Shown piece by piece: positions 1,189 to 17,172 of a stretch of 35,671 bases of DNA. Each line of letters starts with the position of its first letter. The first letter of the stretch is position 1. A program made the position numbers and the translations under genes. A model generated the notes under the pieces. The model had not been told where the DNA came from, searched no databases, and worked only from the letters and a program-made list of their open reading frames with translations. The stretch comes from a virus. The stretch lies in IMG/VR virus record IMGVR_UViG_3300030106_005039, positions 1-35,671 of that record. The stretch is one strand, 5' to 3'.

Positions 1189-2364
1189 ATGAATACCGAA
1201 ACACCAGAAATCAAATTCAGCGACGTACAAACACAAGCTGAGATCGTATACTCATCAGGAGACTCAGTAATGATTCTCTTGGGATCAGGAGGTACAGGCA
1301 AGACAGCTCTTGCCAATGCCTCAGTAACTAAGGCTATCGCTAAACTCTACGGAGTTACCGATGAAACTGTAAAGGTGTACAAGTGTAACTACACTGGTGC
1401 ATCACCTCTTGAGATCACAGGTTATGGGGTCTTGAAGAAGGGTGCGAATGGTGAGGATCTCATGTCATTCTCAGAGCCAGAGGGTATACCGACGGCAGCA
1501 CTTCTTGAGAGACTTGGCATGGAAGATACTCCTTGCTTGCTAGTCTTCGATGAGATGCCAGAGTGGGCAGCCGATACAAGATCGTTGGTACGTAGTACTA
1601 TCGATCCAGATGGTGAGTCTAAGATTGGCTCGCATAGGCTTGGTGAGAATGTCAAGATACTCGTGACAGGTAACCGACGTGAGGATGGATCACGCTCTGC
1701 AGTACTGGATGCCCCGATAGTGAATCGTGGTAATCAGTTTATATTAAAAGCAGATATCAACTCATGGTTGAGTTGGGCATCTGAGTTTGCGTGGAGTAAG
1801 TTCTCACCAGTCGTTGAGTACCTACAGTTCAACGCTAAGTTGGAGAATGGTAACCGCTTCGCTCCATCTATCCCACAGCCTTGGGATGGGTCACCACATC
1901 CAACTCCGAGATCATGGGCGAGTGCTGCTAAACAGATCAGCTATATTGAGAACAACCTTGAGCTTAGTAAGTCTGAGTTCAACAAGCATCTCAAGCTGAC
2001 ACTGCAATCTAAGGTCGGTGACACTACAGCTCGTGATTGTATCGCATACATCAACAGCTCAACAGGTCTGCTCGATGACCTTGATGCTGTACGTAAAGGT
2101 GACATGGACTTATCAGATAAACCTACTGATCAGTTCAAGATGATTCACGCTGCACTACGGATCATGGACTATGAGCTGACTGACCTTGAGAGTCGAGGCA
2201 GGGACAGAGGAACGGCTGTGTCTGCAGGTGATGTAGATTGGTTCGTTGATAGATTCCTACTACCCGCTACCAAGGAGATTGCGAGAGCAGGATATCATGC
2301 AGCGATCAACGTAGGCATCCCATTGAAAGAGCATCCTAAGAATGCAGAACTGAAAGGACTTTAA
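1189..2364 (+). CDS. MoxR-type AAA+ ATPase
   Basis: A 391-residue AAA+ ATPase. It has Walker A GSGGTGKT (32-39), Walker B LLVFDE (117-122), sensor 1-like TGN (160-162) and a candidate arginine finger in NR (179-180), all in the usual order. The C-terminal half is helical, as in MoxR lid domains. MoxR ATPases typically act with a vWA protein to remodel a target or insert a metal cofactor, and here a vWA gene follows 44 bp downstream. It is a cytoplasmic ATP-driven remodelling enzyme; the substrate is unknown. The start is the ATG at 1189, after an A-rich leader and the 39-bp repeat. The stop lies inside palindrome copy 3. The ATPase call is firm; MoxR affiliation comes from the motif spacing and the neighbour. 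Confidence 0.88.
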   Translation: MNTETPEIKFSDVQTQAEIVYSSGDSVMILLGSGGTGKTALANASVTKAIAKLYGVTDETVKVYKCNYTGASPLEITGYGVLKKGANGEDLMSFSEPEGIPTAALLERLGMEDTPCLLVFDEMPEWAADTRSLVRSTIDPDGESKIGSHRLGENVKILVTGNRREDGSRSAVLDAPIVNRGNQFILKADINSWLSWASEFAWSKFSPVVEYLQFNAKLENGNRFAPSIPQPWDGSPHPTPRSWASAAKQISYIENNLELSKSEFNKHLKLTLQSKVGDTTARDCIAYINSSTGLLDDLDAVRKGDMDLSDKPTDQFKMIHAALRIMDYELTDLESRGRDRGTAVSAGDVDWFVDRFLLPATKEIARAGYHAAINVGIPLKEHPKNAELKGL

Positions 2365-2408: not shown

Positions 2409-3962
2409 ATGATACCAAATATAGAAGACATACAAGAAGGCGATCCGATTGTGTTTGATCACTACGGAGACAGCACACTAGCCAAAGCATTTCGTAGGCT
2501 AGAGACAACTGAAGAGTTATACCCTTACTACAGTGCCTTGACACTACTCAAATGGGTATGGACATATCAGACTCCATATGGACAGACGGATGGTAGATAC
2601 CTACGGCTCAATCCGTATGGTGTATTAGATAAGATAGAACAGACCAGTGATCCAGTTGGATTCCTTGCATTCCTACTAGCTCACGAATCAGGTCATGTGA
2701 TGTTGGGTATATCCAGACTCTTCAAGTTGATGGGTACTATACCAGAAGATGATGCCCCCGCTCATGTGCTGAATGAGTTCATGAAGCGTAAGCGTCTAGT
2801 CAACATCGCTGCTGACCATGCAGATAATCTACTCATACTCAAACAGAATGCGAAGCTGTTACCGATGATCGAAGGGTCATGCTGTGACATCCGATTTGAT
2901 AACATGAGTACGGAGAATATTGTCATCGAGCTTGCTAAAGACGAGAACAATGGACAATCTAAAATGGACGATGAGCAGGGAGCAGAGGACGATGATCAAC
3001 AGGATGGTGATGATGAGCAGCAGGAAGGTGATGATAATCCACAGCCATCTGACGAAGGCGACGAGCCATGCGATGAGGATGCCGACACTAATCAAGATAC
3101 AAGTGAATCAGATAGTGATGGCGATAGCACTGATGAGGGTGATGGTGACGGAGATCAAGAGGGTGATGCTACAGGAGGCACACCTAAACCAACCGACAAA
3201 GAAATCTTAGGTGATGATTGGGTCGGGCAGGGTGCTGATGATTTACCTGACGAGCCGCACCTTGAGGAGGGCGAGACACTTGAGGAGGTGCTTGAGGAGA
3301 TTGACCAGATCTCAGATCAGGTGATCAAGCAAGCTGAGTTTGCATCGACATCAAGTGACATGGGCTTGAGTGACACCATGAGAAGTGTCAAGGATCAGAA
3401 GTCACAGCGGTCATACATGGATTGGAAAAAGTATGTCATGGAATGGAACACCGCTCGTGTTGCTGACGGATGGACTCGACCATTCAACGCACCGATCTTC
3501 AACGCAACCAATGGGCTATGTACTGCAGGTCGTGGTCGTGATGGTTGCGGTACAATCGTCTACGTCATCGACAGTAGTTGGTCGATGGATGAACAACTGA
3601 CATCTGATCTATTGATCCTTGCACAAGAGTTCCTTGATAATATGAGACCTGAGAAGATGGTCATCCTATCTGTATCCTCTCAGGTGCGAGACGTGTATGA
3701 GTTATACTCAGGTGATCAAGCTCCAACTAAAATCAAAGTCGGTGGTGGTACAAGATTCCATCCCGCATTCGAGTGGGTCAAAGAGAACGAACCATTCTGT
3801 GATGGGCTAGTGTACTTAACTGATGGTTATAGTAATGATCTAAGGAACTTACAAGAGCAGCCTTATCCAGTGCTATGGGTATCATACGGATTAGAATCTA
3901 AACACTACACAATCGGTGAGGCAATCGATGCTGCGCCAAGCAACGCAGGTATCGCTGCATAA
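2409..3962 (+). CDS. Metallopeptidase-like plus vWA domain protein (DUF2201-like)
   Basis: A 517-residue protein with two domains. The N-terminal part carries a zinc-metallopeptidase-like HESGH motif (92-96) and a downstream N-I-A-A-D-H (132-137), the arrangement of the DUF2201 putative metallopeptidase domain. A very acidic linker of Asp, Glu, Gln and Gly (about 186-256) follows. The C-terminal vWA domain keeps a complete MIDAS metal site: DSSWS (388-392), Thr448 in GGGT, and Asp472 in LTDG. DUF2201 proteins are commonly paired with MoxR ATPases, as here. I infer that it is the substrate-binding and possibly proteolytic partner of the ATPase at 1189-2364. The linker's low complexity produces spurious ORFs in other frames. 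Target and peptidase activity are unproven. Confidence 0.88.
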   Translation: MIPNIEDIQEGDPIVFDHYGDSTLAKAFRRLETTEELYPYYSALTLLKWVWTYQTPYGQTDGRYLRLNPYGVLDKIEQTSDPVGFLAFLLAHESGHVMLGISRLFKLMGTIPEDDAPAHVLNEFMKRKRLVNIAADHADNLLILKQNAKLLPMIEGSCCDIRFDNMSTENIVIELAKDENNGQSKMDDEQGAEDDDQQDGDDEQQEGDDNPQPSDEGDEPCDEDADTNQDTSESDSDGDSTDEGDGDGDQEGDATGGTPKPTDKEILGDDWVGQGADDLPDEPHLEEGETLEEVLEEIDQISDQVIKQAEFASTSSDMGLSDTMRSVKDQKSQRSYMDWKKYVMEWNTARVADGWTRPFNAPIFNATNGLCTAGRGRDGCGTIVYVIDSSWSMDEQLTSDLLILAQEFLDNMRPEKMVILSVSSQVRDVYELYSGDQAPTKIKVGGGTRFHPAFEWVKENEPFCDGLVYLTDGYSNDLRNLQEQPYPVLWVSYGLESKHYTIGEAIDAAPSNAGIAA

Positions 3963-7077: not shown

Positions 7078-10000
7078 CTACTCTACAGGAATATAACGTC
7101 CGTAAGTTTCGAGTTGGTTATTAAAGGTACGCAATCTTTCAATATGAGTATCCCCTTTGACTGCCATGTTACGGATGAACGGAGTCTGCAAAGCGGGACG
7201 CTCCATCAAACCATTTAAGAGTAAGGCGACTCGACGTTTACCATACCCACGCTCTATTGCTTGAGAGTATATCTGCTCATCAGTAAGACCTAACTTCTTG
7301 AATCCTCTAAACGCTCTAATTAAATGTTCATTAATACGTCTACGTCTTTCAATCTCCGTATCAGCCATACCTCTTACAGCATCTTCTGATATCGAGTCAT
7401 CTGTATACATACGGTTTTTAAGTGCTGCAGCTCTACGATATTCACCTGCTCTTTCTGACAGGAACCGATCAAGCTGTTGTTCAGGTACTATGTCGTATGG
7501 TCTAAGGGGTAAGAACTCTTTAGCTAACGCCCCTAAAGGAGTCATGATAAAATCAGATACGTCTGGATCTCCCTCCATCAATTTAACAAACCCGTCTTTA
7601 TATACTTTCTCAAGGGTTCTTGGGGCATAAGACTCTGCAAAAATAAACTGAAACTTTTTAGAAAAGGCTTCCCATGCAGTGTCATTAACCTCTGTAATAG
7701 GTCTCCCATTCTCTGGGTCTCTATTATTTAATGCACTGGTTACAGCCCCTGCCAGTATTTGTTGGTCAAGATACTGATCGGCAACCATCGCTTTAAAGAA
7801 AGCGGCTCCCGCTTCTGCTGGACTACCCCTCATTAACTCATCAAAGGAACGTAGGAATGGGTCAACCATCATGGCGTATGGGTTAAGATAAGTTAAATCT
7901 AATGATTTTAATTGACCTCCTTGAGTAAAGTAGAAGAATGAGTTGCTTCTTAAATACTCAGGCATCGAATCTCTAAGAGCTTCTTCCTCTTCGTCCCCTA
8001 TACCAGTGAGGGCATTCACAACAACTTGCGATATTGCGGAGAACCCTACTAACACGGTAGTGAATCCAATCATTCTATCCTTACCTCGTTTTCTAATAAC
8101 TGGATTAGTATCCGCCATTTCTTTCCTCGCTAAGAGGACTGTGTTTAGCATGATCCTTGGAACCTCTAATTTGAATCGGATGAACGGGGCGAACATTACC
8201 CCGAACCATGTACCCTGTAACTTCTGGACAAAAGGTGGGGCTTGATCATAACTTTGTGCAGTTTTCTTTACTTTATCTGCAGCCATCTGCATAAGTTCTT
8301 CATCGCTCAAGGCTCCATAATTAGTCTGGTTCTCTGCTGTTGAAGCAACGTGTTTAGATCTAGCTTGTTGTAAAACCTCTAGCTCATTCATGAAGTAAGC
8401 GATTTTATAAAAACTATCTACAGTTTGTGATAACTCTCTCAACCTACGAGCAAACCTACCTGCTCTTGTTTTACCTACTTTCTCCGATATGGCGCTAACA
8501 TCTAACGCCTTCTTAGTACCACTTGTTTCACTTTCAAGACCAGCAAGATTATCCAACAATTCTTTCTGAAGCTGCGCTTCGCTTCGAGGGTTTGTTAAAA
8601 AGTCCTGTAAGAGTCTAGCTTCTATTTCATTACCAATAACCCCTAATCCGATCATGGTTCTATGGAACGCACTCACTTCTTCTGGAGCCATTGATAAGTA
8701 TTTCTTCCGCACAAACTCTTTCTCTAATGATCTACCCATCTTACCAAACCTCCAGAACCCTTGAGACGGCCCAAAGAAAACAATGTTTGAAACTATGTTT
8801 CGAACATAGAATCCAATAGATCCTAATGTTTTAGCTCCTAAAGATAGACCCGTTAACTTAGCTCCTACTTCTGTAACAAACTGATTTGCTTTGTCGGCTT
8901 CGGTCTGAGTTACTTTCGCTTTAGGATCAAGTATAGCAGAAACAGCTTGTTCCATTTCTGTAAGAACATAATAAGTTTTCCCGTCTGCAAATGGCGCTGT
9001 ATTGATAATACTAGTGTCTGCTCCAGCAGCTACTTTTAAAATACTATAACCTTCAGGTGCGGGTTTGTATGTCGCTGCCTCTCCCTCAATCTGCACTTCG
9101 TCTAGTTCGGCCTCTATAATGAATGGTTGTCCATCTGTTTTTTTGGTATCCATACCAAACTTCTTGAGGTTGCTAATGAAGTTTATTTGAGAAGCAATTA
9201 AACCAAGATGCGAGAAAGTTTGCAGTAGTTCATTATATCCAGTCTCATCGTCAACTTGACCTAACAATTCTCGCAACTCTTGCGGAGGATTTTTACGTCT
9301 CTTCAAAGCTCCGATGTTTAAACTCACAATACTTTTTGCGTGGTCTTTAAGGTTATTAAATAAATTAGAAGCCGATCTATCACTTTTAATATGTATATCG
9401 AGATAATCATTTACGAGCTTCGCTTTAAATTCAGCAACCGTAGGGAACTTTTTGACTTCGTTACGCCAATCTTTATTGAATGTCTTATATTGTTTATATA
9501 GAAAGTCCCCTGCATTTTTCCGTACAGTGTCGTATCTAGAGTCTGTTCTTATGTTATCCCTGTATTCTTTATCTGAAAAAAGTTTATACTCTCTGTGTAG
9601 ATACAGTTGTAAGTTGTCATCAATAGCAATACCCATTTCACTATCCTCCCCTACGATGCCCCGTATAACTGTTGATAGCTCATCAGTTAAGGCTCTTAGC
9701 CCTAATACTTCTTTACCATCTATCTTCCCGCCAAGCAGATGCCTAACTAGTCTTGTTTTATCAGAGTCTTTTTCAGGAACCTTTTGTATTTTAGCTAACT
9801 CGCTTATAGCTTTATTCTTCCTATCTCTAAATTCTTTTCTCCTCCCCTGCACATACTCAGCTCTTATCTCAGCAATCTTCGATTCGGATTTAACTCCTTT
9901 TATTAAATCAAGATATGCTTGTTCTGTTTCGGGAGATATGTTTTCACGGCTACCTACTAATGCTTGTATCAAAGCAACAGGTGCTTTGCCATCAAAATCT

Positions 10001-13000
10001 TCTTTGATTATTTTATCTAGCTGATTCTTAAAGTTAACAACATCAGCTTCGACAGCATCTTGTATTTGTCTTCTTTGTTCTACAAGTCTTTTTATTCTTG
10101 GGTCTAAGTCTCCCCTAAACTTATTTACTAAACTTCCAAATAAGCCATCTTTCTTTTTCCTATATTTACCTGTCTCAAAGAAAGGTAAATCAAACAAAGG
10201 TGCATAACCCCCATAACCTAAACCACCTTCAGCCGTATCGAACGTACCGCTTTCAAGACCACCTGCTTGTGTGAATCGGACATCCCCTTCTCTACCGTAG
10301 TCAGGACGGCTACCCCATACAGGTTTTTGTATATACACTCTGTTCCCTATATGTATAGCTTCACTACCACCTACTACAGGTACAGGATCTAATGGGTTTG
10401 TTATATCTACAAACTCTGAACTTCTTAAAGGGTTTATTGCAACTTCGACCCAACGATTATCCCCTGTTTGTTTAGGTCCAACTTTACCACTAGCCCAGTT
10501 TTTACGAAAAGTATTTAACTGAGCAGGAGTGAACTCCATCAGCTCACCTTCCGTAGAAGCCATAAGTCCTTTGTTACCTCCTGCAGCTATTCTCGCTGCT
10601 GACTTTTCGTAACGTGTTATTTCTTTAAGTTTTATCTTCGCATAGTTTGTATATGCTTTCGGCCCTTTCATTCTTGGGCCCGCTATAGACACAGCATAAA
10701 TAGGAGATCCTTTTTTTATAGACTCATTAAAAGTAGGTATGTCTAACCTAATCGATACAGGATCACTTCCAATTAATTTATATACTTGTGAATAGGCTAC
10801 TGTCCCATGTGTAGAAGAACCATCTTTCGTTTTCTTATCGGCACTAATAAATTTAAGTATATTACTAACGGTTGGGGTTTTTGGTACTTCAGTATTCTTA
10901 TAAGGAAATACTCTGTTACGGATTTCATTATATGTTGCTTGAGTTATTTGTTTTTTAAATAAACGGTTTGCAGCTACAGCGAGTATGCCTGACCTATCTT
11001 TATTTTTGTGGAATGCCGCCTTCTCAAATATCTCTTGCTCTGCAGGATCGTTAAGGTCACTAGCAGTTTTTACTTTCACAAGAGAAGCAACTTGCCTCTC
11101 GTTTACCTGTGATGTGATCGGAGGAACATCTTCTATATTATCATAAACACCTTCTAAAGAACCTGCTTGAGTATACCTTATATCTTGAGAAGATAAATCG
11201 AACCTTTCAGATAGTGGAATGACGTTTCCATTATCATCTCTTGTTATAGGCTTAGATGATTTGATTGCTGTGTTATCCCGAACAGCTATATTCTCTGGAG
11301 GACTCCATGTTTGGTCTTCATTAATAAGTATAGCGTCGTACTTCCGAAAGACAGCATCAATGACACTTGGGATTTCCCAAGCTCTCCAATGAGCCTGTTT
11401 AATTAAATCCATAGCTCTATCAGGCAAAGGGAATTCCTTACCCTTTGTTTCGAAGTGTCTCCGAAACTCAGGCTCAAACTCTTTCCAGTTTTTAGTAGGG
11501 TCAAAAACTTTATCTGCTTTTAAATAACCTTCCATTACTGTACGTCCCATATCCCGCTTGGCTTCACTCCATGTCATTCCATCAAGTAACGATCTTTCAA
11601 GATCCTCTGTTTGTTTTCTAATAGATTCTTTATCTTCAGGCTGACGAGCTTTCATCATCTTATATTTAAGCTCATTTTCTAACTTTTCAGATTTTTTCAT
11701 TGCTTCGTCGATCCTCTTCTCAACGTCAGCAGGACGTGCTTTAAGTCTTGAGTAGGCGTTTGCAAATGATTTACTCTTAGAAAAGAATATGAGGCCGTCA
11801 CTTTCTCTACCTTTAAAGGACGTAAAGTCTGACTTAGTTCCATGATAAACAGGGCCGTAAGTATACCCTGCTCTTTTAGCAGCCTCACTCACCATGATCT
11901 GTAGGTCTATGTCATTTAAACCTGTTTTAGGATCTTCTGCCAGCTTCATATACTCTGCATCTAAAGAACCTGCTTGTGTTTCACGTACAGGTTGTATTCT
12001 TCCAGCAGCCGCACTGACTTGTTCCATCTTCTTCTGCCTATCTACTTTAAGATCGGCATCATATTTAAATGGCCCAAGTTTCTCCTCCATGATTTCAGCA
12101 GGAGCTTCTTTTGAGTTACGTCTTTTCTTAAAGTTTTCGTTTGGAGATACTACACTTTCACCACGAATCTCTGAGGCTTTATCCAACATGATTTCATGTG
12201 AACCTTTGTCACGACCAAGATCACTGACAAAACTTACAAAATTTAAGTCTGGATTCTGCTTCTTATTTGTTTCAACAAAAGATGCAATAACATTACCTAA
12301 CGCATTTATACTCTCTTTGTATGCTGCTACATCAAAAGGAAGTGCAAAAGTCTGTCCTATACCCCCATCTTCTACAGGCAACTTATCAGCTACTTTCTTT
12401 TCCATACGTCCTATCTGATCAACAGGGTTAACAGAGAACAAACCCGTGTTATCATACGGAGGGAAGTCGTGCCAAAAATCTTGAGGTACAACCCCTAAAG
12501 GTTCTGAAATTGTTACGTAGTATACCCTACCATATTTTTTACTTACCCCACCATCATCAGTAACCTTCCTCATTTTGTTATATGATTTATATGTCACATT
12601 TCCACGCATCGTAGGGCTCTGTATATCACACCAAGGTTTGGTCGCAGCACATGGCACGAATGCAATAGTGTCATACCCATCAGGAATCTCAAAGTTCGAC
12701 ATGTCTGAATGCCAGTTAGAAACTTTTTCGTTCTTAATTAATGCTGCTGTCATAGCAGGAGTAGGAGCGAACATGTCAAAAGTAAGTTCAGGAAGCTGGA
12801 CGCCTTGAGATTTTCTAACTGCTTCTCTTGTTGAGTTGTATATACCTTTCCTTTTGTTAAAGAAATATCTAATAAACCGAACAAGCTGAACAGGAGGTAG
12901 TACGAGTTTGTTTGATGGCCTACCTGTTTTAAGTGATTTAAAAGGTTTACCTAATTGTTCAAACTCTGCATCGTTTATCTTTAATGTATCCTTTATGAAA

Positions 13001-16000
13001 GACTCAACTTGAGCTGCATCATCAAGATCTAAGTTATTGACAGCTTTATCTATATCGAAAGCTCCCGCTTGAGTTTCACGTACACCCGTTGGAGGTGAAT
13101 ACCCGAACTCGTAAATTGAACTACCTTCGGTGATCAACTCCCCTGCCTTAACTTCTTTGGTTAATACTTTATATCCTTTGTCACCAAACATTCTAGCCCC
13201 ATGCATCTCAGCATAGTCACGATCCGTAGATACCCAATCTCCTGCATTAATCCCTCCTTTTACATTTGATGGTACACCTCTGTATACAGTTACTTTAGCA
13301 TCAGGGTTTCCACGTACGGATACAATCTGATCATAGACCTTCTGGTCATTAGTCGTATCGTACGAACCACCAGTACCGTAAAATCTTAATCCATCAGATG
13401 AGTAAAAGTCAGATGGATAAATACTTTCATCCATAGCACTCATTGGTGACCCGTAACCTCTGTCGGGGGCTCTATGAGATCCTCTATAATCTAACTCACC
13501 CTCTTGTGTTTGCCGCACACCCATATCGATCTTCCTATTTGGATCACGATCAACGAACGGTTTATCATCGAGATATGTTATAACTTTATTTATAGAGTTT
13601 TCTGGATCATCAATATCAAACTTGATCGCAGTGCTAACCTCAAAACCACCTTTCAGTCTTGTCATCTCACCTGTCAGTCTGTGTATAGCTGCGGATATAA
13701 CAGGGTTATCAGCATCTAACTCCCTTATAGCATTAAAACGATTTATATAAGAACGTAAGTAGCGTAATAATACTCGAACAAAACTTGGGTTGGTTTTGTA
13801 AAACTCTATCTCTTCTTCTGTAGTGTACCCTTTAAGTATTCTTTGTGCCTTCATACGTAAGTACTCATCAACTATTACGTGTTGCATGCTACGCTGATCT
13901 ACACTCAAAGCGTCAGGGCCAAGTTGACTACGAGCCGCTTGTCTTTTCTCATCTGTCTTATAGTATGTGTCTATAATCTCGTTTACTTGAGTATCAGATA
14001 ATACAGAAAATATAATGTCTATCTCAGCTTTACTTAAATTTCTCCACGCTGCGTGGTGTATAACCTCATGAGATGCTTCGAATCGAGCGACGTGTTGTGC
14101 ATTAGCTTTATTTAACCCCATCGTAAGTCTAGCAAGACCCCAAGGGTTTATAACAAGACGCATTCCTTCTTCAGTCTGCTCTGCTCTGTATGCTCCTAAT
14201 CCTTTATTCTTTTCATTATAATCTACACGAGACTCCATACCCCAGAAATCGGCAACTTGTTGTGCGTCAGTTCTTGCGTCTAGATATCTTTGATAATGCT
14301 CATCGGCACTAAGCCCTTCCCCTAACTCAATGGATTTTTCTTTTGTCCCCCACAAAGTGTCGAAAGTTTTTACAAGCTGCTCCTCTTGCTCTATTGCCCT
14401 CTGCCTTCCTTCTTCTAATTGTCTTTCAAGATCCTCATCTAAAACACCTTCTTGCGTTTCCCGCACCTCTTCAGCTTTACTTTCTTTTAAAATAACATCT
14501 GCCTCTCCTTGAGTTATTAATTGTTTTTCTAATTTACTACGTACCTGTTCTTCTAGTTTTTGTATATCGATGTTACTTTCTTGCCTATCTGATTTAATGA
14601 CTTCTGATATCGCTTTTTTCTGAGCAGTTCCTGATGCCTCTTGTGGAGTAGGTATTACAATAGGCTCTCTTGATCTAGCAGCAGTACTTAACTGCCTTGA
14701 TAACTGTTCTTTGTTTTCTTCGAAAAACGCTTGTGTTAAAGGAGAGCCTGTTTCTCCTAAGTTTTTTATAATGTTATCTATTGTTTCTTGTTGAAACCTT
14801 TCGTAACGGGCTCCTGTGCCTTTATCAAACATATTCTGAACACCAACAACTCCAGCACCCATAACACCACCTAAAGAAGCGGCATGTAGTCCAACCATCA
14901 TCCGATCTATCATTGGCGTGTTTTCATTAAGGGCAGCATCCGTAATGAATGTTTGTATAAATTCATCAAGACCTTCTTCAGCAGCTTCACTAGCTGCAGG
15001 AATACCGAACTGCCTCAAAAAAGCAGAGTTTTTAGCAGCCGTCTTCATTTGTTTTTCAATAGTACTACCTATTACTTCCCTTACTTTAGATGAGCCAAAA
15101 CCTGATATATCTAAGTTTAGTATCTTTGACATCCCCGATGTCATACCTTTGTAAGTCATGCCTCTAAGAAATGCTTGTTCAAAACCTCCTAAACCTATAC
15201 CCATAAACGCAGTCGTAAGTAGTCCTGTCACAGTACCCGCCATCATTGCGTAACCTAAAGCAGCATCGTGCTTTTCTTCGTGTGTCAAAGAATCTGGCTG
15301 TGCTGCGTATACAGTAGCGTACATTCTACCTGAACTTCTATTTGCAGCGGGTATATATACTGCAGGGAAAGCCGATGCTTTACGGAAAGTTTTATTAGCT
15401 ATCGCTTTGTTGTACGCCTTGATTGCTTTTTGAACTCCTTTGTCAGTCACCGTTTTAGCTGAATCCTTCAGCTCTTTGTTAGCTGCAGCCTTTAATGCAA
15501 TATCTTTTGCTGTATCACCAAACTGCCTACCCGTAGCGGCCTTAGTTAAATTTTTAACAAGTGCTTTAGCTGTTTGTTTAGCTCCAGCTTTAGTTCCAGC
15601 ATATAAAACACCCCCAGTACCTAAAGTTCCTGCAGACAACAGAACTGTAGCAGAGACATCAACAACCATTGGCGCAATCACATTTGAAAGATCCATACCC
15701 CAACCAAACTCATCACCGAAAACTGCAGCGACTTCTCGTCTACGTTGTCTATCCATTTGGTTATCGACCAAATACTTTGTAGCCCCTTCGCTTTTAAAAA
15801 TTACAGCACCTAACGAAGCAAATAATCCTATTACCGCATCAGGCACAGTTGCTGCTATATCTCCTAATCTGTTTTTTATAGAACTGTAATTACGTTTATC
15901 AGCTAAGAAAGTATCCAGTACGTCTACATCGGAAGCCCCACTAGCCCTTCCCGCTTGTTTTGCAGCCATCCAATTATCACTTGTTGCTGCTGTATCGGAT

Positions 16001-17172
16001 AGAAACTTATCGTACTGCTCGTAAGTTAACTGCCTGTACAATTTACGCTGATTTCTGAGCGATGTAATTTGATCCTCTGACAATCTATCATCGTTCTTGA
16101 TCGCCTTCTCGAACCTCTCTCTTTGTTGCATAAGGTTCGGGTGTGCCAGCACATGACCACTCCCTAATATACGGATGTTCTTAGAATCATCTTCGTCGTA
16201 GAATTTAAATTCTCCTTTTTCATTTACCTCGTTCGCTGCCAATAGTTCAACAGCATCTCTGATCTCTTTATCAGAGTATCTTTCAAGAGCAGCTCCTTCA
16301 CCAAATCCATTCTTACGTGCATACTCTGATGACAATCCTTTACGGAAATCTGCAACAACATCTAAAATATCTTGCTCCTGCTCTAAATCAGAATCCTCAT
16401 CCTTTGCTTTGATAAGCTCACGCATCGTATCAAGTGCGTCCTGTGGTATGCTGTCAACTTCATCTTCTGATCCTAAGACTGCATTAAGTTCAGTCAAGAG
16501 CTGTGCTTGCCTTATGTTTTCAAATACACTAGCATCGGACACTCCCTTTTTTAAACCAGACATAACACGATACGCATCTGAATAGTTTAATGCTCCTAGT
16601 CGAACTGCATCGTCCAATGACTTACCTCTATCAGTTATGTCAGCACCACCAATAATTTTATCGATACCTTTAGCGTCTTTTACTCTAGCAAAAGGCAGAA
16701 CCCCTGAATCAACTAGTAGCATTTTTGCACTGTTAAGCTGCTTATCAAGCTCCTCTTGATTCCCGCTTTCACTTTGTATGTTACTAAGATAAGTAGACCC
16801 TGCTTGCTCACCATATGCCATACGTATTAAGTTAGCTTGAGTCTGTGCATCAGCTTGAGGTTTGAGCGTATCTAAGAAATCTTCTGATTCAACTTGTTCG
16901 GGGGTTACTAGTTGATTGTTAAGTAAACTGCCTACTAACCCTTGTGTAATTGATGATTCTACTTCGTCGTCAAGTTCACCTGTACGGAAGAAATGTCCTC
17001 TTTGATAATCAGCATAGCCTTGGGAACTGAGCAATGGATCATTGATATTTGACCCTGAAGAGGCTGACCACTGACTGAATGATTGTAGTGGTGCGACGTT
17101 GAAGTTTAAGTCAAGGTCATTAGGCACGGGGGTTTTCTCCCCCAACGATAATGTTGGATATAGGTCTGACAC
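7078..17172 (-). CDS. Giant polyvalent protein with peptidase and ADP-ribosyltransferase-like domains
   Basis: A 3364-residue protein, last gene of the late operon, with a GTG start. Visible order: unassigned N terminus (1-440); hydrophobic helices at about 440-525 and 635-785; zinc-peptidase-like region with HEVIHH (1035-1040) and Glu1103 as possible third ligand; ART-like domain 1 at about 1290-1360 (VTVYRGV, WVSTD, IYEFGY); archaeosine-synthase-like domain at about 1503-1650 (PCAATKPW, EPLGVVPQDF); ART-like domain 2 at about 1770-1990 (VYHGT, IFFSKSKSFANAY); an unassigned module (2010-2290); and a long C-terminal region with membrane-like helices (about 2980-3060), resembling LPD-type domains. 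Such proteins are typically carried in virions or injected to counter host defences. Six R-x-T-Q-[AE]-G motifs separate the modules. Antisense ORFs across it are shadows. Domain calls are by motif only; delivery is inference. Confidence 0.9.
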   Translation of the reverse strand: MSDLYPTLSLGEKTPVPNDLDLNFNVAPLQSFSQWSASSGSNINDPLLSSQGYADYQRGHFFRTGELDDEVESSITQGLVGSLLNNQLVTPEQVESEDFLDTLKPQADAQTQANLIRMAYGEQAGSTYLSNIQSESGNQEELDKQLNSAKMLLVDSGVLPFARVKDAKGIDKIIGGADITDRGKSLDDAVRLGALNYSDAYRVMSGLKKGVSDASVFENIRQAQLLTELNAVLGSEDEVDSIPQDALDTMRELIKAKDEDSDLEQEQDILDVVADFRKGLSSEYARKNGFGEGAALERYSDKEIRDAVELLAANEVNEKGEFKFYDEDDSKNIRILGSGHVLAHPNLMQQRERFEKAIKNDDRLSEDQITSLRNQRKLYRQLTYEQYDKFLSDTAATSDNWMAAKQAGRASGASDVDVLDTFLADKRNYSSIKNRLGDIAATVPDAVIGLFASLGAVIFKSEGATKYLVDNQMDRQRRREVAAVFGDEFGWGMDLSNVIAPMVVDVSATVLLSAGTLGTGGVLYAGTKAGAKQTAKALVKNLTKAATGRQFGDTAKDIALKAAANKELKDSAKTVTDKGVQKAIKAYNKAIANKTFRKASAFPAVYIPAANRSSGRMYATVYAAQPDSLTHEEKHDAALGYAMMAGTVTGLLTTAFMGIGLGGFEQAFLRGMTYKGMTSGMSKILNLDISGFGSSKVREVIGSTIEKQMKTAAKNSAFLRQFGIPAASEAAEEGLDEFIQTFITDAALNENTPMIDRMMVGLHAASLGGVMGAGVVGVQNMFDKGTGARYERFQQETIDNIIKNLGETGSPLTQAFFEENKEQLSRQLSTAARSREPIVIPTPQEASGTAQKKAISEVIKSDRQESNIDIQKLEEQVRSKLEKQLITQGEADVILKESKAEEVRETQEGVLDEDLERQLEEGRQRAIEQEEQLVKTFDTLWGTKEKSIELGEGLSADEHYQRYLDARTDAQQVADFWGMESRVDYNEKNKGLGAYRAEQTEEGMRLVINPWGLARLTMGLNKANAQHVARFEASHEVIHHAAWRNLSKAEIDIIFSVLSDTQVNEIIDTYYKTDEKRQAARSQLGPDALSVDQRSMQHVIVDEYLRMKAQRILKGYTTEEEIEFYKTNPSFVRVLLRYLRSYINRFNAIRELDADNPVISAAIHRLTGEMTRLKGGFEVSTAIKFDIDDPENSINKVITYLDDKPFVDRDPNRKIDMGVRQTQEGELDYRGSHRAPDRGYGSPMSAMDESIYPSDFYSSDGLRFYGTGGSYDTTNDQKVYDQIVSVRGNPDAKVTVYRGVPSNVKGGINAGDWVSTDRDYAEMHGARMFGDKGYKVLTKEVKAGELITEGSSIYEFGYSPPTGVRETQAGAFDIDKAVNNLDLDDAAQVESFIKDTLKINDAEFEQLGKPFKSLKTGRPSNKLVLPPVQLVRFIRYFFNKRKGIYNSTREAVRKSQGVQLPELTFDMFAPTPAMTAALIKNEKVSNWHSDMSNFEIPDGYDTIAFVPCAATKPWCDIQSPTMRGNVTYKSYNKMRKVTDDGGVSKKYGRVYYVTISEPLGVVPQDFWHDFPPYDNTGLFSVNPVDQIGRMEKKVADKLPVEDGGIGQTFALPFDVAAYKESINALGNVIASFVETNKKQNPDLNFVSFVSDLGRDKGSHEIMLDKASEIRGESVVSPNENFKKRRNSKEAPAEIMEEKLGPFKYDADLKVDRQKKMEQVSAAAGRIQPVRETQAGSLDAEYMKLAEDPKTGLNDIDLQIMVSEAAKRAGYTYGPVYHGTKSDFTSFKGRESDGLIFFSKSKSFANAYSRLKARPADVEKRIDEAMKKSEKLENELKYKMMKARQPEDKESIRKQTEDLERSLLDGMTWSEAKRDMGRTVMEGYLKADKVFDPTKNWKEFEPEFRRHFETKGKEFPLPDRAMDLIKQAHWRAWEIPSVIDAVFRKYDAILINEDQTWSPPENIAVRDNTAIKSSKPITRDDNGNVIPLSERFDLSSQDIRYTQAGSLEGVYDNIEDVPPITSQVNERQVASLVKVKTASDLNDPAEQEIFEKAAFHKNKDRSGILAVAANRLFKKQITQATYNEIRNRVFPYKNTEVPKTPTVSNILKFISADKKTKDGSSTHGTVAYSQVYKLIGSDPVSIRLDIPTFNESIKKGSPIYAVSIAGPRMKGPKAYTNYAKIKLKEITRYEKSAARIAAGGNKGLMASTEGELMEFTPAQLNTFRKNWASGKVGPKQTGDNRWVEVAINPLRSSEFVDITNPLDPVPVVGGSEAIHIGNRVYIQKPVWGSRPDYGREGDVRFTQAGGLESGTFDTAEGGLGYGGYAPLFDLPFFETGKYRKKKDGLFGSLVNKFRGDLDPRIKRLVEQRRQIQDAVEADVVNFKNQLDKIIKEDFDGKAPVALIQALVGSRENISPETEQAYLDLIKGVKSESKIAEIRAEYVQGRRKEFRDRKNKAISELAKIQKVPEKDSDKTRLVRHLLGGKIDGKEVLGLRALTDELSTVIRGIVGEDSEMGIAIDDNLQLYLHREYKLFSDKEYRDNIRTDSRYDTVRKNAGDFLYKQYKTFNKDWRNEVKKFPTVAEFKAKLVNDYLDIHIKSDRSASNLFNNLKDHAKSIVSLNIGALKRRKNPPQELRELLGQVDDETGYNELLQTFSHLGLIASQINFISNLKKFGMDTKKTDGQPFIIEAELDEVQIEGEAATYKPAPEGYSILKVAAGADTSIINTAPFADGKTYYVLTEMEQAVSAILDPKAKVTQTEADKANQFVTEVGAKLTGLSLGAKTLGSIGFYVRNIVSNIVFFGPSQGFWRFGKMGRSLEKEFVRKKYLSMAPEEVSAFHRTMIGLGVIGNEIEARLLQDFLTNPRSEAQLQKELLDNLAGLESETSGTKKALDVSAISEKVGKTRAGRFARRLRELSQTVDSFYKIAYFMNELEVLQQARSKHVASTAENQTNYGALSDEELMQMAADKVKKTAQSYDQAPPFVQKLQGTWFGVMFAPFIRFKLEVPRIMLNTVLLARKEMADTNPVIRKRGKDRMIGFTTVLVGFSAISQVVVNALTGIGDEEEEALRDSMPEYLRSNSFFYFTQGGQLKSLDLTYLNPYAMMVDPFLRSFDELMRGSPAEAGAAFFKAMVADQYLDQQILAGAVTSALNNRDPENGRPITEVNDTAWEAFSKKFQFIFAESYAPRTLEKVYKDGFVKLMEGDPDVSDFIMTPLGALAKEFLPLRPYDIVPEQQLDRFLSERAGEYRRAAALKNRMYTDDSISEDAVRGMADTEIERRRRINEHLIRAFRGFKKLGLTDEQIYSQAIERGYGKRRVALLLNGLMERPALQTPFIRNMAVKGDTHIERLRTFNNQLETYGRYIPVE
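10252..10281 (-). repeat. Interdomain motif copy 6 (VRFTQAGGLE)
   Basis: Residues 2298-2307, between the unassigned 2010-2290 module and the C-terminal 1050 residues. Codons for R-F-T-Q-A-G are CGA TTC ACA CAA GCA GGT. Confidence 0.8.
11152..11181 (-). repeat. Interdomain motif copy 5 (IRYTQAGSLE)
   Basis: Residues 1998-2007, at the end of ART-like domain 2. Codons for R-Y-T-Q-A-G are AGG TAT ACT CAA GCA GGT. Confidence 0.8.
11959..11988 (-). repeat. Interdomain motif copy 4 (VRETQAGSLD)
   Basis: Residues 1729-1738, between the archaeosine-synthase-like module and ART-like domain 2. Codons for R-E-T-Q-A-G are CGT GAA ACA CAA GCA GGT. Confidence 0.8.
13054..13083 (-). repeat. Interdomain motif copy 3 (VRETQAGAFD)
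   Basis: Residues 1364-1373, right after ART-like domain 1. Codons for R-E-T-Q-A-G are CGT GAA ACT CAA GCG GGA. Confidence 0.8.
13489..13518 (-). repeat. Interdomain motif copy 2 (VRQTQEGELD)
   Basis: Residues 1219-1228, between the metallopeptidase-like region and ART-like domain 1. Codons for R-Q-T-Q-E-G are CGG CAA ACA CAA GAG GGT. Confidence 0.8.
14437..14466 (-). repeat. Interdomain motif copy 1 (VRETQEGVLD)
   Basis: Residues 903-912 of the giant protein. It separates the N-terminal membrane-like part from the metallopeptidase-like region. Codons for R-E-T-Q-E-G are CGG GAA ACG CAA GAA GGT. Confidence 0.8.

Follow-up and report, generated by a model that had tools for sequence, protein, structure and literature searches.

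A recurrent border peptide marks the exchange seams of cassettes in a family of giant polyvalent phage proteins, with private counterparts in unrelated ones

What is the role of a short peptide that recurs at module borders along a single giant phage protein? The question is raised by IMG/VR virus record IMGVR_UViG_3300030106_005039, a stretch of 35,671 bases analyzed here at its full length (the window), which carries terminase, DNA polymerase, helicase, exonuclease and endolysin genes. Downstream of the terminase gene and on the same strand, an open reading frame (ORF; 7078..17172, minus strand, as are all parts of it given below) with a GTG start encodes a 3364-aa protein of an uncultured phage. 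Polyvalent proteins combine at least two unrelated activities in one polypeptide of a phage or mobile element; here, ART-PolyVal, phrog_2579, zincin-like and DUF5591-like cassettes are joined in one chain, with terminase, DNA polymerase and endolysin genes nearby. The protein is probably injected into bacteria. An earlier note on this DNA had pointed to six copies of a border motif and taken them for cleavage sites, perhaps for self-processing by a metallopeptidase-like domain with the signature HEVIHH. Beyond that proposal, we find that the motif copies are the seams at which whole cassettes are exchanged, and that other polyvalent proteins repeat border peptides of their own.

The motif [VI]R[EQYF]TQ[AE]Gx[LF][DE] is present at residues 903, 1219, 1364, 1729, 1998 and 2298, exactly where it had been described, and nowhere else in the protein. 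The six copies are VRETQEGVLD (copy 1, 14437..14466), VRQTQEGELD (copy 2, 13489..13518), VRETQAGAFD (copy 3, 13054..13083), VRETQAGSLD (copy 4, 11959..11988), IRYTQAGSLE (copy 5, 11152..11181) and VRFTQAGGLE (copy 6, 10252..10281); copy 5 sits on the generic tail that follows ART domains, PLSERF...DIRY[ST]. Not one strict copy arose in 2000 shuffles of the 3364-aa protein, and the loose form R.[TS]Q.G appeared 0.063 times per shuffle in 2000 shuffles. From copy 1 to copy 6, Arg is encoded by CGG, CGG, CGT, CGT, AGG and CGA, and Thr by ACG, ACA, ACT, ACA, ACT and ACA, in agreement with the codon differences reported earlier. Across the family defined below, 29 copies from seven non-redundant members give the core R-x-[TS]-Q-x-G-x-[LFIV]; R, Q and G are invariant in it, and the first motif position accommodates Q, E, G, F and D besides V/I. 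When 2.9 million viral contigs were scanned with GTNMGNNNNACNCARGCNGGNNNNYTNGAN, 27 stretches emerged; outside the family these were just single matches in short or unrelated ORFs, and the idea that RxTQxG is common to unrelated phages was rejected.

The copies divide the protein into cassettes. A zincin-like metallopeptidase (MPT) cassette (residues 903-1218; 13519..14466) is bounded by copies 1 and 2. It is followed by a cassette matching the C-terminal (ART-like) domain of phrog_2579 (residues 1219-1363; 13084..13518), in which the PHROG domain spans residues 1223-1362, between copies 2 and 3; this cassette corresponds to the entire gene 131 product (129 aa) of mycobacteriophage IHOP. Next come a cassette with a weak match to DUF5591, of the archaeosine-synthase type (residues 1364-1728; 11989..13083), which is also found in L002, L003 and L008, three of the family members introduced below, and an ART-PolyVal (PF18760) cassette (residues 1729-1997; 11182..11988), with its domain at residues 1775-1855, between copies 4 and 5. 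The PF18760 score of the latter, 28.2 bits, is below the Pfam cut-off of 31.2, and related cassettes in L005-L008 score 47-68 bits. The last cassette (residues 1998-2297; 10282..11181), of unknown function, is shared with L002, L003 and L005. On either side lie a conserved N-terminal region (residues 1-902; 14467..17172), for which a Pfam search gave no match above cut-offs, and a conserved C-terminal region (residues 2298-3364; 7081..10281), which is also present in distant megaproteins at 27-32% identity. Thus, the copies stand at domain borders, as had been claimed: the phrog_2579 and ART-PolyVal domains lie between them, and the cassettes of homologues start and end there. In an AlphaFold2 (AF2) model of residues 1205-2016 the motifs fall into low-confidence valleys, an observation of little weight given the mean predicted local distance difference test (pLDDT) value of 44. 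The cassettes appear to be autonomous, one of them being equal to a whole mycobacteriophage protein. Relatives of two of them, with 27% and 31% identity, are arranged differently in other phage proteins: a cassette of the residue 1998-2297 type stands before ART in L081, and one of the phrog_2579 type directly before ART in L094.

Comparison with eight relatives in viral contigs (L002-L008 and L023), each with 2 to 6 motif copies, shows how the cassettes move. All nine proteins have both terminal regions and the HEVIHH cassette in common, and between copy 2 and the last copy there are zero to four cassettes, the homologous ones aligning over the full distance between motifs (25-99% identity). 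The window protein and L003 share the order phrog_2579 domain, DUF5591-like, ART-PolyVal and unknown; L002 is without the ART-PolyVal cassette; in L005, L006, L007 and L008 the ART cassette directly follows the metallopeptidase; L004 contains a private cassette of 120 aa; and L023 is an 'empty' form devoid of cassettes, with just two motifs, which flank the MPT. Accordingly, where local alignments in the variable region end, they do so within -6 to +16 of a motif in 118 of 164 cases, compared with approximately 10% expected, so that homologues display the very border enrichment whose absence the earlier note had named as evidence against its reading. In L002, the sequence at the junction begins as copy 4 of the window protein and continues as copy 5; the switch falls inside CAAGCAGGTTCTTTAGA, a stretch of 17 nt that is identical in the two copies, and at least one in-frame cassette loss or gain has therefore proceeded via the motif DNA. 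Collectively, these results show that complete modules come, go and change their order, with the motif copies as their exact limits.

Is it the peptide or the underlying DNA that is maintained? Copy 1 is informative in this respect, lying between two parts that are never exchanged. In pairwise comparisons of members, its core residues R, T/S, Q and G show an amino acid difference, always T/S, in 12% and a synonymous one in 44%, as against differences in 84% (upstream) and 76% (downstream) for the 11 residues on each side. Because the core holds while its codons vary and its flanks diverge, the motif peptide itself is under purifying selection, as the earlier note had proposed from the codons; mere descent or DNA homology does not produce such a pattern. 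A strict within-protein co-variation from T to S, suggested by L006 and L007, in which all copies have S, was weakened by L023, with one S and one T. In L003, approximately 90 residues before copy 1 (residues 861-954) differ from those of the window protein and L002, and the motif is kept; the linker there has therefore also been replaced while the motif stayed.

The first candidate for an enzyme acting at the motif is the MPT itself. HEVIHH (residues 1035-1040; 14053..14070) lies between copies 1 and 2, as had been stated, and is kept as HE[VT]IHH in all nine motif-bearing proteins; so is a downstream Glu, which in the window protein is Glu1103 of VDEYLRM (13864..13866), which on conservation and modeling may be the third zinc ligand, placed on the following long helix. 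In the model of residues 880-1245, the confident core comprises a helix, three strands (model positions 101-104, 116-121 and 124-129), the HEVIHH helix (143-165), inserts and the Glu1103 helix (211-234), an order that matches the zincin core described in PMC5512222; beside this core, copies 1 and 2 have pLDDT values below 50. In 18 distant relatives that lack motif repeats, the equivalent place is devoid of HExxH; 14 of the 18 rows, several of them near-duplicates, have EExxH there. The association of an intact HExxH with the motif fits in-cis processing. The EExxH domain with a conserved downstream Glu (L026, L033, L034, L036-L040, L043 and others) is a zincin that has lost its activity or else a metal site of another kind, and several of the proteins bearing it carry a separate HExxH domain elsewhere. 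In L074, a distant cousin, an ART domain with the tail DIRFSLG is immediately followed by a domain with an intact HELGH.

The suspicion, voiced in the earlier note, of a wider family of border motifs that includes R-[YF]-S after ART domains proved well founded in ART-PolyVal proteins. A search with an ART alignment collected 80 viral and 80 genome loci, in which the tail [VI]IPLS[EQ]RF[DN]xxxxDIR[FY]S is nearly universal; its part up to RF belonged to the search pattern and its part after RF lay outside it. The isolated phages F116 and Pmp11 display this generic tail as well. In many ART-PolyVal proteins, a version of the peptide peculiar to that protein is repeated away from the ART tail. Such dialects include RFALDV, nine times in L097; FSAPR, four times in L082; L[YR]SELGA in L090 and L132; YSVR in L101; FSP in L088; and FSVG in L182. 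The clearest independent dialect is that of L097, a 5882-aa open frame truncated by the end of the locus, with nine exact RFALDV copies between residues 2106 and 5019. These copies flank an ART-PolyVal domain and a C5 cytosine DNA methylase, entering neither, and in L088 a copy of the peptide stands six residues before a PBECR5 nuclease.

Two tests on the loci outside the window family support this recurrence. Outside ART tails, the tail six-mer of 53 proteins had 79 matches within its own protein, compared with 25.9 when tails were swapped (maximum 48 in 10,000; p < 1e-4), 30.9 for letter-permuted tails (maximum 48) and 37.5 for random six-mers from the same protein (maximum 58), with untuned settings (a four-of-six threshold and deduplication by shared 8-mers). 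Likewise, the peptides before and after an ART cassette matched by at least 4/5 in 40% of own pairs versus 2.6% of cross-locus pairs (77 cassettes, 72 loci), the mean of 3.18 lying beyond the permutation maximum of 2.35. The border peptide is thus common within a protein and different between proteins. In L156, L184, L220 and L232 the peptides match and the codons are mostly different, and much of the dialect similarity has persisted through synonymous change.

How are these observations to be understood? We propose, with confidence evenly balanced between acceptance and doubt, that the copies are recognition sites in flexible linkers of a modular effector polyprotein, serving as processing sites that double as exchange seams; that they are cut, we infer from the sequence evidence. 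The cassettes (ART-like, archaeosine-synthase-like, ART-PolyVal and unknown) would become independent effectors, whether before packaging, inside the head or once injected, and a cassette bounded by the common site would arrive in frame, already fitted with processing sites. The coincidence of processing site and exchange seam would be explained because every border carries the same site. The HEVIHH zincin, bounded by copies 1 and 2 and present in every member, would be the first candidate protease for the family, the alternative being a protease that acts in trans; its assignment to this role is tentative and falls short of probable. Of the earlier proposal of self-processing, then, the strict retention of HE[VT]IHH in the family and its absence from relatives free of motif repeats speak in favor; the dialect-bearing proteins without such a signature speak against it as a general mechanism, and a second zincin-like gene encodes a rival protease in this phage (both considered below).

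Several observations weigh against cutting at the copies, or against the MPT as the enzyme. Fold searches with the MPT against PDB and BFVD gave no match at E <= 0.001, and its assignment as a peptidase therefore rests on motif and topology; a PDB sequence search with the MPT and ART profiles gave nothing meaningful either. The association of HExxH with the motif is a single phylogenetic contrast. Among 17 complete dialect-bearing proteins, seven are without HExxH or HExxxH, and a built-in zincin therefore cannot be the general mechanism. At post-ART borders, DIR[FY]S may belong to the ART fold as its final strand and not to a free linker. At identical dialect residues, codons agree in 78 of 136 cases compared with 51.6 expected from codon usage, and because of this excess, part of the within-protein similarity is to be attributed to DNA copying. 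Finally, N4 vRNAP, another polyvalent protein that has an MPTase, is packaged without being cut (PMC5512222).

The best-surviving rival holds that the copies are docking or packaging peptides, which bind one and the same partner (portal, scaffold, chaperone or either terminal region of the protein itself) for packaging or threading through the tail and stay uncut, the dialect co-evolving with the partner. It explains selection on the peptide, its position at borders and the protein-specific dialects as well as cleavage does, covers dialects in proteins devoid of any HExxH, and agrees with N4 vRNAP, which is packaged uncut even though its MPTase region is required for encapsidation (PMC5512222). 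However, docking gives no reason to expect sites on both sides of every cassette, notably around the MPT in the 'empty' L023, and leaves unexplained why HExxH is present in the motif-bearing clade and lacking in its motif-repeat-free relatives. We consider processing likelier because the same peptide flanks every cassette, metallopeptidase included, and regard docking as doubtful, albeit a serious contender.

Somewhat less probable still, and in our estimate unlikely, is cleavage in trans, either by a host protease or by a protein of the phage itself, with HEVIHH being an effector or structural domain. The phage candidate is the product of a gene on the plus strand (2409..3962), which by Pfam match and sequence consists of an AHESGH-bearing N-terminal region and a von Willebrand factor A (VWA)-like DUF2201 metallopeptidase-like domain and is adjoined by an AAA ATPase gene (1189..2364, plus strand; PHROGs and Pfam-type search). 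Homologous DUF2201 genes with HE[SG]GH are present in the L002 and L023 contigs, and the uneven occurrence of in-cis zincins among dialect-bearing proteins is in line with an external enzyme. On the other hand, the DUF2201 gene is on the other strand, outside the gene run from the terminase to the polyvalent protein, and no role in virion protein processing is known for DUF2201/AAA pairs. A general prohead-protease site was considered and is disfavored: in two contigs of 76 and 63 kb, the motif is confined to the ORF of the polyvalent protein, and no S78 or ClpP-type protease was found in the nine family records, whose contigs may be fragments. The corresponding S77 search was uninformative, its controls giving no match either.

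It is improbable that the copies are recombination seams only, kept by recombination that spreads short DNA, with the peptide functionless. The L002 junction within 17 identical nucleotides and the codon sharing above expectation are what such a process would leave behind, but copy 1, which is never exchanged, keeps its core with synonymous divergence while its flanks have turned over, and the four proteins with matching peptides and mostly different codons do not fit it. Least of all can the motif be seen as an outgrowth, functionless in itself, of the usual C-terminal ART tail (PLSERF...DIR[FY]S) that reached the other borders through descent, a highly improbable idea that draws on the position of copy 5 on that nearly universal tail and fails on copies 1, 2 and 4, which follow no ART domain, on the two copies of L023, which has no ART cassette, on Q-x-G, seen directly after the tail only in the family among the collected ART loci, and on the selection at copy 1.

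Three further observations concern the window and its relatives. The PHROGs label 'HNH endonuclease' for the DUF2201 gene (2409-3962) is not supported by the Pfam match and the sequence. Directly upstream of the GTG start of the polyvalent protein gene (window position 17172), the peptide NYTNPNSA is conserved across family members; the start codon may therefore be misassigned, or this stretch may overlap with a conserved leader. The L002 contig (G001, 76,396 bases) contains two similar, non-identical sets of four ORFs, at approximately 6.6-14.0 kb and 66.5-73.8 kb, of about 435, 375, 590 and 720 aa (by size and order, helicase, exonuclease, polymerase and primase); the assembly is either chimeric or joins two related phages.

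Returning to processing at exchange seams, how does it relate to known systems? The polyvalent proteins of Iyer et al. 2017 are likewise very large phage proteins with disparate domains, including ART and zincin, and that paper put forward auto-processing by the MPTase as a general theme, P1 DdrB being cut and N4 vRNAP not; unlike the present analysis, the passages of that paper on polyvalent proteins name no cut site, border motif, seam role or within-protein dialect (PMC5512222). Nor was a report of border or cleavage motifs in polyvalent proteins found in the literature searched, outside which most subscription journals lie. The VENN peptide of CdiA is similarly both a cassette-exchange seam and a cut site (PMC9424206), cutting in our case being the proposed part; it is, however, a single site, placed ahead of the C-terminal toxin of a secreted bacterial protein, whereas here 2-6 copies bound internal phage cassettes. 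MARTX toxins likewise carry modular effectors in one polypeptide, between which a built-in protease cuts after delivery (PMC6315884), but that protease is of another class, and here the target is bacterial and the border motif is repeated and spans multiple residues. The polyvalent protein belongs to neither the CdiA nor the MARTX family: at E <= 1, no Pfam match to a cysteine protease domain or RTX repeats was obtained in the whole protein, and there was no Pfam match to a Pretoxin-VENN domain or a C-terminal toxin of CdiA or polymorphic toxins. In substrates of prohead proteases, such as SPN3US gp245 with its AXE sites, a phage-specific short motif also recurs in packaged proteins (PMC10052503); those sites mostly remove N-terminal propeptides of many head proteins, whereas here the motif is confined to one protein in the two large contigs.

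More broadly, it is plausible, although somewhat short of probable, that polyvalent proteins of phages and mobile elements in general are polyproteins of exchangeable cassettes with a private border code, a peptide of 4-8 residues that is constant over all seams of one protein, varies from protein to protein and co-evolves with a dedicated protease or receptor, of which RxTQxG, RFALDV, FSAPR, LYSELGA and YSVR would be dialects of one design. A border peptide that can be read from sequence makes the idea of polyvalent protein processing testable, as it predicts where fragments should end, and allows giant effector proteins to be divided into modules even in the absence of known domains. It also explains how phages can reshuffle their anti-host effectors while keeping a single reading frame, and, if cleavage is true, each dialect would represent a new pair of protease and specificity.

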